DNA from: Glutamicibacter soli
GTDB taxonomy: Bacteria > Actinomycetota > Actinomycetes > Actinomycetales > Micrococcaceae
NCBI RefSeq assembly: GCF_003309065.1
Contig: NZ_POAF01000001.1
Coordinates: forward strand, 62,001 to 126,000
Direction of reading: 5' to 3'
Length of the DNA: 64,000 nucleotides
Below, piece after piece: positions 57,943 to 61,210 of the stretch. The first letter of the stretch is position 1, and each line of letters opens with the position of its first letter. A program made the translations under genes and the position numbers. The notes under the pieces were generated by a model. It did no database searches. It was not told the origin of the DNA and saw nothing but the letters and a program-made list of their open reading frames with translations.

Positions 57943-60432
<2,490 letters not shown>

Positions 60433-60505
60433 TGAGCTCTTCTCACAGATTCGCGGAAAAATTTCCTGACGGAAAACTGGTTTCTGCTTCCAGACACAAC
60501 AAAAG

Positions 60506-60527
60506 CCCCCAAATTTCCACTCGGGGG
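60506..60527 (-). terminator. Intrinsic terminator inside the leuS leader
   Basis: On the minus strand CCCCC and GGGGG pair across a 12-nt loop and C + TTTTGTTGTG follows. No gene ends upstream on this strand, so its role must be premature termination. Confidence 0.75.
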
Positions 60528-60546
60528 TACGGCCGTCAGGCCGCTC

Positions 60547-60573
60547 TTAGACTAGGTCGCGCTGGGAATACAT
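60547..60573 (-). CDS. leuS leader peptide with one rare Leu codon
   Basis: The ORF reads MYSQRDLV and stops at TAA. Codon 7 is CTA, the rare Leu codon also used in the leuA leader. TAGAAT (60585-60580) ends 6 nt upstream of the ATG, so the ORF is probably leaderless and is the first element of the leuS message. One sensing codon is weaker than the run in leuL, so the call is tentative. Confidence 0.6.
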   Translation of the reverse strand: MYSQRDLV

Positions 60574-60579
60574 AGGGTG

Positions 60580-60585
60580 ATTCTA
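60580..60585 (-). promoter_or_regulatory. -10 box of the leuS leader message
   Basis: The minus strand reads TAGAAT, placing transcription start at or next to the leader ATG at 60573. No good -35 is seen. Confidence 0.55.
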
Positions 60586-60706
60586 TCGCACCCCGGGCGG
60601 TGCATGCCGCATCGATGAAGCGCAAGCTTGCCCACAGTCCGCGCCGCGGCACCTTCGCGCCTGAAACATCGATGCGGTCGATCGCGCCATCGGCCACAAT
60701 GGGCTC

Positions 60707-61210
60707 ATGATCCCATGCTTCCCGCGCCGTGCGCGCCGCGTCCTCGCCCCGGGCCTGCTGCTGCCCGTCGGCGCGCTCCTGCTCTCGGGCTGCGCCATGC
60801 TCGGCACCTACGAAGGGCACACCTGCGACGGCAGGAAACCTGTCGCCTCCCTGGAGCAAGCCGGCCGCCAGCTGGTCCAGGCCGCGTACGACCAGGACGT
60901 GGAAGCCGCCTGCCGGGTGGCAACCCCCTACGCCGGCGTCGAGCTGGAGCCGAGCATGCTCGGCAGGACCCGGGAGCTGCTGGCAGGCGCCGGGGTCACC
61001 CCGCAGAATGTGCAGGTGCTGGTCGGCGAGCAGATGGGCAGCTCCTATTCCGTGCTGCTGGGCAGCACGGAGGGAGAGGGCCGGGTCGCCGTCACCGGCC
61101 ACGCGGTGTGGGACGCCGGCTTCACCATCTCGCTGCCCGACGACGCCTATCCGGAGCTGCCGCAGGCGCCTGGGGACCCTGCCTCGCCACCCTCCTCCGC
61201 GGCGCCCTAG
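60707..61210 (+). CDS. Small lipoprotein, unrecognised family
   Basis: The 167-residue protein has an Arg-rich N-terminus, a hydrophobic segment and a lipobox 'LLSGC' at residue 29. The mature part is about 139 residues with a conserved-looking 'YDQDVEAACRVATPYAGVELE' start (Cys, Asp-rich) and ends in a Pro/Ser tail. It has no recognised domain. It is divergent from leuS. The ATG at 60707 gives a complete signal peptide. Confidence 0.7.
   Translation: MIPCFPRRARRVLAPGLLLPVGALLLSGCAMLGTYEGHTCDGRKPVASLEQAGRQLVQAAYDQDVEAACRVATPYAGVELEPSMLGRTRELLAGAGVTPQNVQVLVGEQMGSSYSVLLGSTEGEGRVAVTGHAVWDAGFTISLPDDAYPELPQAPGDPASPPSSAAP

Follow-up and report, generated by a model that had tools for sequence, protein, structure and literature searches.

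Organization of the leuS leader

The window, by which we mean the whole 64,000-nt stretch of Glutamicibacter soli DNA that was analyzed, contains on its minus strand an ORF of 829 aa (57943..60432, with a GTG start at 60432) which, from the annotation of its relatives, we take to be leuS, encoding leucyl-tRNA synthetase. With this gene, 80 named leuS-type loci were retrieved (the best 80 being kept), the closest of them carrying the names Glutamicibacter and Arthrobacter sp. A Shine-Dalgarno-like sequence, GAGAAGAG, precedes it (60437..60444), and the region above, read on the same strand, carries a short leader. A -10 box, TAGAAT (60580..60585), stands 6 nt 5' of the ATG (60573-60571) of an eight-codon ORF, MYSQRDLV* (60547..60573), whose seventh codon, CTA (60553..60555), is its sole Leu codon and the candidate control codon; the leader is thus without a run of Leu codons. 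Downstream follow a stem-loop that we call hairpin A (GCGGCC-TGAC-GGCCGT; 60529..60544), an intrinsic terminator stem-loop, CCCCCGAGTGGAAATTTGGGGG (60506..60527), and a U-rich tail, CTTTTGTTGTGTC (60493..60505). Hairpin A was predicted by folding, and the terminator both by folding and by a terminator scan of the sequence (one found vs. 0.8 expected from shuffles). The box 6 nt ahead of the ATG, the eight-codon ORF with its one CTA, the hairpin, and the terminator had all been named in the original prediction, and each was found where it had been placed.

The 6-nt spacing between the box and the ATG, together with the leaderless leuL2 of Streptomyces lividans (discussed later), suggests that the mini-ORF probably has a leaderless start. 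When both strands of the window were searched for a -10-like box (four were tried) 6-7 nt before an ATG or GTG, with a stop codon within 20 codons, only one site was found. As had been predicted, the leader is devoid of T-box features: no Rfam family matched the window at gathering score, and none matched positions 60380-60680 at up to E 5, and a T-box or other Rfam family was accordingly rejected. Above the -10 box lies CTTGCGCTTCATCGATGC (60609-60626, minus strand), which may be a promoter element or a binding site; L007, L008, L009, and L013 show, by eye, similar letters at roughly that position. Farther up, a divergent ORF of 167 aa (60707-61210, plus strand) faces away from leuS, and its start, LLLSGCAML, looks lipoprotein-like by eye.

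Conservation within Glutamicibacter

DNA matching the leader was found in 16 of 18 genomes of the genus, its own genome included, and all 16 loci carry an ORF of the same length, eight codons, with CTA at codon 7. In an alignment of the 15 distinct leaders (A1), mean identity is 1.00 at the -10 box, at the ATG, and at the CTA codon, which is invariant in all 15; it is 0.81 over codons 2-6 and 0.76 at codon 8. The encoded peptides vary accordingly (MNPKRNLA, MHSKHNLV, MHPASSLV, and others), and it is the Leu codon that is conserved, and not the peptide as such. The stems of hairpin A are 0.94-1.00 identical and its loop 0.37; the terminator stems are invariant, and the tail that follows them is 0.99 identical. 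Between the tail and leuS identity is 0.84, and at the start of leuS 0.94. Upstream, the 50 nt above the -10 box are 0.74 identical, versus 0.31 for the stretch 51-100 nt above it.

The original prediction had staked itself on an alignment of leuS leaders from related genomes, and both the CTA codon and the terminator are conserved in the genus, as is the ORF. As judged from aligned sequences, then, comparison shows the box, the ORF, the control codon, the hairpin, and the terminator to be kept by selection. At one Glutamicibacter locus, L011 (Glutamicibacter sp. PS), the ORF reads MKPQ* and holds no Leu codon, with the box, hairpin, and terminator kept; this is a single genome that may contain errors. 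At another, L012 (MYSQFHLL*), there is no hairpin between the stop codon and the terminator.

Distribution of the leader among actinomycetes

The pattern of -10 box, mini-ORF, and terminator was present at 79 of the 80 best leuS loci from public genomes, 78 of them with a Leu codon. The peptide usually takes the form MxxxLLLx*, as in MRAILLLS (Arthrobacter), MNVALLLT (Paeniglutamicibacter), and METTLLLR (Zafaria). Sixty further leuS upstream regions, 54 from the order and six from the class or phylum, yielded 29 leaders by the pattern and four more by a covariance model, with 27 found by neither; a looser rule applied to 18 of the 31 pattern-negative regions gave nothing convincing. The pattern-found leaders number 123, including the 16 genus loci (113 are distinct), and do not count L011, which has no Leu codon, or L085, in which the start and the last Leu codons are lost. 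As the pattern required, the start codon of all 123 is preceded by TANNNT at a spacing of 6-7 nt.

The covariance model was built from 36 leaders without Glutamicibacter (a hand-picked set, A3). It recovered four leaders (L123, L129, L132, and L133) among the 31 pattern-negative regions, indicating that the pattern had missed some. At E 0.01 or better, it matched 32 of the 61 genomes sampled in the family and 65 of the 118 sampled in the class, some of which (e.g., G022's family, G018, and G055) had also supplied sequences to the model and are not independent of it. At all 59 of the model loci retrieved, which were the best matches, a relative of leuS lies downstream on the same strand, encoding either a close type of LeuS or a more distant, longer type. 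TANNNT, sought at 5-8 nt, was found 6-7 nt before an in-frame start in 58 of these 59 leaders.

The Glutamicibacter leader itself is too divergent to have been detected in the genome-wide model search; scored alone, the window leader matched over its full length and in register from the ATG (14.6 bits, E 6e-4 in 301 bases). L205, the only genome-wide match in the genome of the window (E 0.046), was rejected, as it has no leuS in 3.1 kb and was judged by eye to be an unrelated terminator. Some class genomes with a strong match, e.g., G352, G301, G311, and G359, gave second, weaker matches, which may be other attenuators or ordinary terminators. Ten loci, nine of them with model- or pattern-found leaders of other genera, were compared with Rfam 15, and no family matched.

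Leaders of this kind have been described in Streptomyces. Attenuators of leuS were predicted in S. avermitilis and S. coelicolor (Seliverstov et al. 2005; PMC1262725), and a report on S. lividans TK24 describes leuL2, MRAVRLLLSEPR, as leaderless, with three Leu codons and a hairpin and U-stretch before leuS (PMC8079986). The published LeuL2 peptide is identical to the ORF in L157, a distant relative, and to that at seven other retrieved class loci. Because this peptide recurs exactly in a distant relative, the window leader would be of a known kind, ribosome-mediated attenuation, and its sequence identifies it as apparently a leuL2-type attenuator in much reduced form. It resembles the Streptomyces leuS attenuator, as far as that is described, in its short, probably leaderless ORF with Leu codon, its hairpin, and its terminator before leuS; it differs in having one Leu codon as opposed to three, in a stop two codons later, and in the distance to the hairpin (11 vs. 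8 nt). A search by title and abstract opening, with subscription journals mostly outside it, gave no description of this leuS leader in Micrococcaceae. A leuS control element that had been reported in a few Streptomyces is now extended to much of the class.

Identity and number of control codons

The last Leu codon of the cluster is CTT in 92 of the 123 pattern-found leaders and CTA in 29, with CTG and CTC once each, so that 121 of 123 have CTT or CTA; the counts come from related species and are not independent, and the last Leu was set by hand for ORFs ending RLPR and for L012. Both codons are rare: of 5455 Leu codons in the leuS genes of the named loci, CTT makes up 4.2% and CTA 0.5% (4.7% together). 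Similarly, codon 7 in the 59 model-found leaders is CTT in 48, CTA in five, CTC in five, and TTT in one, the last being the leader without a start. In the same model-found ORFs, CTT or CTA accounts for only 12 of the 51 Leu codons one position earlier and for 19 of the 50 two positions earlier. The neighboring codons serve as an internal control and argue for selection on the codon at position 7 rather than on leucine generally. The four model-only leaders (MLTRRLPGRR, MSSRRLAGRR, MSSRRLPSRC, and MSSRRLPGRC) stand outside the count of 121 in 123; two have CTT as the control codon and two CTC, and this use of CTC, in two of these four and in five of the 59 model-found leaders, is contrary to the rare-codon rule.

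Three of the four model-only leaders (L123, L129, and L133) have a single Leu, as does L246 (MASQQQRLIGPR), which indicates that leaders with one Leu codon also occur outside Glutamicibacter. As the codon-7 position is kept, we treat the single Leu as variation within the leuL2-type family. The genome to which the window belongs has ten long (class II) tRNA genes, five of them for tRNA-Leu, with anticodons UAG, CAA, UAA, CAG, and GAG. By the rules of decoding, CUA should be read by the tRNA-Leu with the UAG anticodon.

We considered whether the leader might be constitutive or otherwise regulated, the mini-ORF and terminator setting a basal level of leuS without leucine sensing. L011, which retains the box, the hairpin, and the terminator with no Leu codon at all, speaks for this reading; however, rare Leu codons at one specific position in 121 of 123 leaders, with the neighboring codon as internal control, argue against it, and we think it unlikely. 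From the distribution of these codons, sensing of leucine tRNA is the most likely function of the leader. In Sinomonas gamaensis (L085, ~1299-1382), inspection by eye shows ATT in place of the start codon and CGG GGT at codons 6 and 7, yet hairpin and terminator together reach 54.8 bits on the model. The start and the last two Leu codons would have disappeared jointly, leaving the hairpin and terminator in place, which makes this locus a natural test of the control codon, in a single genome that could hold errors.

Position of the control codon

A doubt attached to the original prediction was that the CTA codon is only two codons from the stop, leaving the geometry of a stall unclear. The relatives answer it. 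Every one of the 36 A3 rows has its last Leu codon starting 8 nt ahead of the base at which hairpin A begins to pair, and the alignment is ungapped in between. The relatives form two groups: one stops two codons past this Leu (LLLx*), and the other reads on for a further three or four codons (LLLxGPR* and LLLxEPRR*), with the 5' strand of the hairpin inside the ORF. The stop codon shifts between lineages, and the distance from Leu to hairpin stays. In Glutamicibacter this distance is 11 nt, in all 15 leaders of the genus.

If we assume a leading edge of the ribosome 14 nt away from where the A-site codon starts, then in the relatives a halt at codon 5 would miss the hairpin, a halt at codon 6 would cover three of its bases, and a halt at codon 7 would cover six; in the genus, with 11 nt, only three hairpin bases would be covered. 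The comparison thereby isolates what would be the functional core of the element, a hairpin preceded at a set spacing by one rare Leu codon. What is new here, as far as aligned leaders can tell, is (i) the spread of the element, (ii) the fixed position of the control codon, and (iii) the paring down to a single Leu codon, in Glutamicibacter and on at least two occasions outside it.

RNA structure and antitermination

Hairpin A and the terminator covary in the 36 relatives, with 95.6% of cells paired and nine of 16 pairs changed on both sides; none of 500 shuffles scored as high on any of five measures, and related rows can inflate these counts. The stems show too little variation within the genus for covariation to be informative there. 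No further helix with notable covariation was found in the 36 relatives. A helix AGCC/GGCU (A3 columns 29-32 / 104-107) was frequent, but was set aside as it has only 4 bp and little covariation.

The original prediction had assigned the part of antiterminator to a perfect 8-bp complementarity, 60540-60533 with 60472-60465, which would exclude hairpin A under the same leucine sensing, and had proposed a search for compensatory changes in it. The complementarity is indeed exact in the window. It is complete there only: between 2 and 7 of the 8 pairs remain in each of the 14 other leaders of the genus (a rough figure, given alignment gaps in that region). Nor is it more frequent than chance would have it: of 1000 dinucleotide-shuffled versions of the 153-nt leader, 76 contained a perfect 8-bp pair, as did 80 of the 418 tiles of 153 nt taken from the window. 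Finally, its 3' strand lies beyond the terminator and would be synthesized too late to prevent termination. We therefore rejected this helix as the antiterminator, and consider a mechanism built on it extremely improbable.

We then compared, by calculation, the pairing of the terminator's 5' strand with upstream sequence when a ribosome is stalled and when it is released. In the positive control, the E. coli trp leader, 71% of this strand was paired upstream with the ribosome on the Trp codons, versus 15% with the ribosome at the stop. The same calculation gave 14% stalled versus 3% released for the window, 37% versus 6% for the genus, and 26% versus 14% for the 36 relatives. The mean number of pairs involving the terminator loop rose from 0.22 released to 2.91 stalled in the relatives and less, from 0.21 to 1.30, in the genus. 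Such a rise in arm and loop pairing when hairpin A is blocked would be expected if leucine sensing worked through a weak classical antiterminator, the 3' strand of hairpin A pairing transiently with the 5' strand or loop of the terminator before the terminator is complete; antiterminator hairpins have also been drawn for Streptomyces leuS (Seliverstov et al.; PMC1262725). However, the value for the window falls far below that for E. coli trp, and the loops do not fit their own upstream strands: the native loop surpassed the median swapped loop in only 15 of the 36 relatives and the median shuffled one in 11, on which ground a selected loop-based antiterminator was rejected. With the lack of any further covarying helix also counting against it, we regard a weak classical antiterminator as a serious possibility, though a somewhat doubtful one.

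Thus, no strong or co-evolving antiterminator was found among these leaders, and the window's alternative pairing is weak. The models suggest that opening hairpin A does something, and that a convincing antiterminator is missing. The terminator persists in folds with a stalled ribosome; as the E. coli trp terminator does the same (P about 0.95), this persistence was not used as evidence. The minimum free energy fold of the window leader pairs the leader codons with the tail, a pairing that was inspected by eye in A1, without counting. Some leaders had been clipped by the pattern before the terminator (e.g., L058 and L157), and their folds were not counted.

Proposed mechanism and known systems

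We conclude that the leader is probably a ribosome-mediated transcription attenuator for leuS. Of the earlier reading of this locus as a tRNA-Leu-sensing attenuator, the leader ORF, the Leu codon, the hairpin, and the terminator are upheld by conservation; the 8-bp antiterminator is not. That the ribosome stalls on uncharged tRNA, and in which direction leuS is then regulated, we infer from this arrangement. The transcript would start at the ATG of the eight-codon ORF, and ribosomes would load on the leaderless start. With ample charged tRNA-Leu, the ribosome would pass the CUA codon and be released at the stop, hairpin A would form, and the terminator would stop transcription before leuS. With the CUA-reading tRNA-Leu uncharged, the ribosome would wait with its A site on CUA and its leading edge over the start of the 5' strand of hairpin A; with hairpin A so blocked, RNA polymerase would read through into leuS. 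More speculatively, actinomycete leuS attenuators may do without a conventional antiterminator altogether, a ribosome halted on the one rare Leu codon of fixed position, in a message without a leader, relieving termination just by holding the hairpin open, with several lineages, Glutamicibacter among them, reduced to that codon.

A synthetase gene controlled by a one-codon leader ORF on a leaderless message had been called unusual, which overstates the case: besides leuL2 with its three Leu codons, S. lividans has trpL2, MMTRTCTQLWRAA, before trpS, leaderless and with one Trp codon, for which two hairpins and no U-rich stretch are reported (PMC8079986). The window leader shares with trpL2 the ORF with a probable leaderless start, the single control codon, and an aminoacyl-tRNA synthetase gene downstream, and differs from it in the amino acid, Leu in place of Trp. 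The attenuator of C. glutamicum ilvBNC is likewise actinobacterial and has CUU among its control codons; in contrast, its terminator and antiterminator, as described there, overlap and compete for a GCC triplet, and no such arrangement was identified in the window leader (PMC11857589).

Leaders with one Leu codon offer minimal attenuators made by nature, suited to the question of how transcription on a leaderless mRNA can be controlled by one starved codon. The leader ORF of the Salmonella and E. coli leu operon, unlike the probably leaderless one of the window, is leadered. That leader also uses rare CUA control codons, but has several of them and serves a biosynthetic operon. In favor of the proposed mechanism, the Salmonella leu leader became less sensitive when CUA was exchanged for CUG (Carter et al., as told in PMC1183508); against it, theory holds that many control codons give sensitivity and that a single one should be poorly sensitive (PMC1183508).

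Conservation of the tail extends past the U-tract, with UUUUGUGUGUC or UUUUGCAUGUC in many relatives and families (A3 columns 107-117); no pairing partner was found for it. We considered whether the terminated leader RNA, or the peptide, might also act in trans, with the conserved tail serving that role. The near invariance of the tail in the genus and its similarity across families would suit such a function, and a leader peptide with a role in trans has been reported in Sinorhizobium (PMC7298713); however, the peptide varies freely outside Leu, and we judge a function in trans very unlikely.
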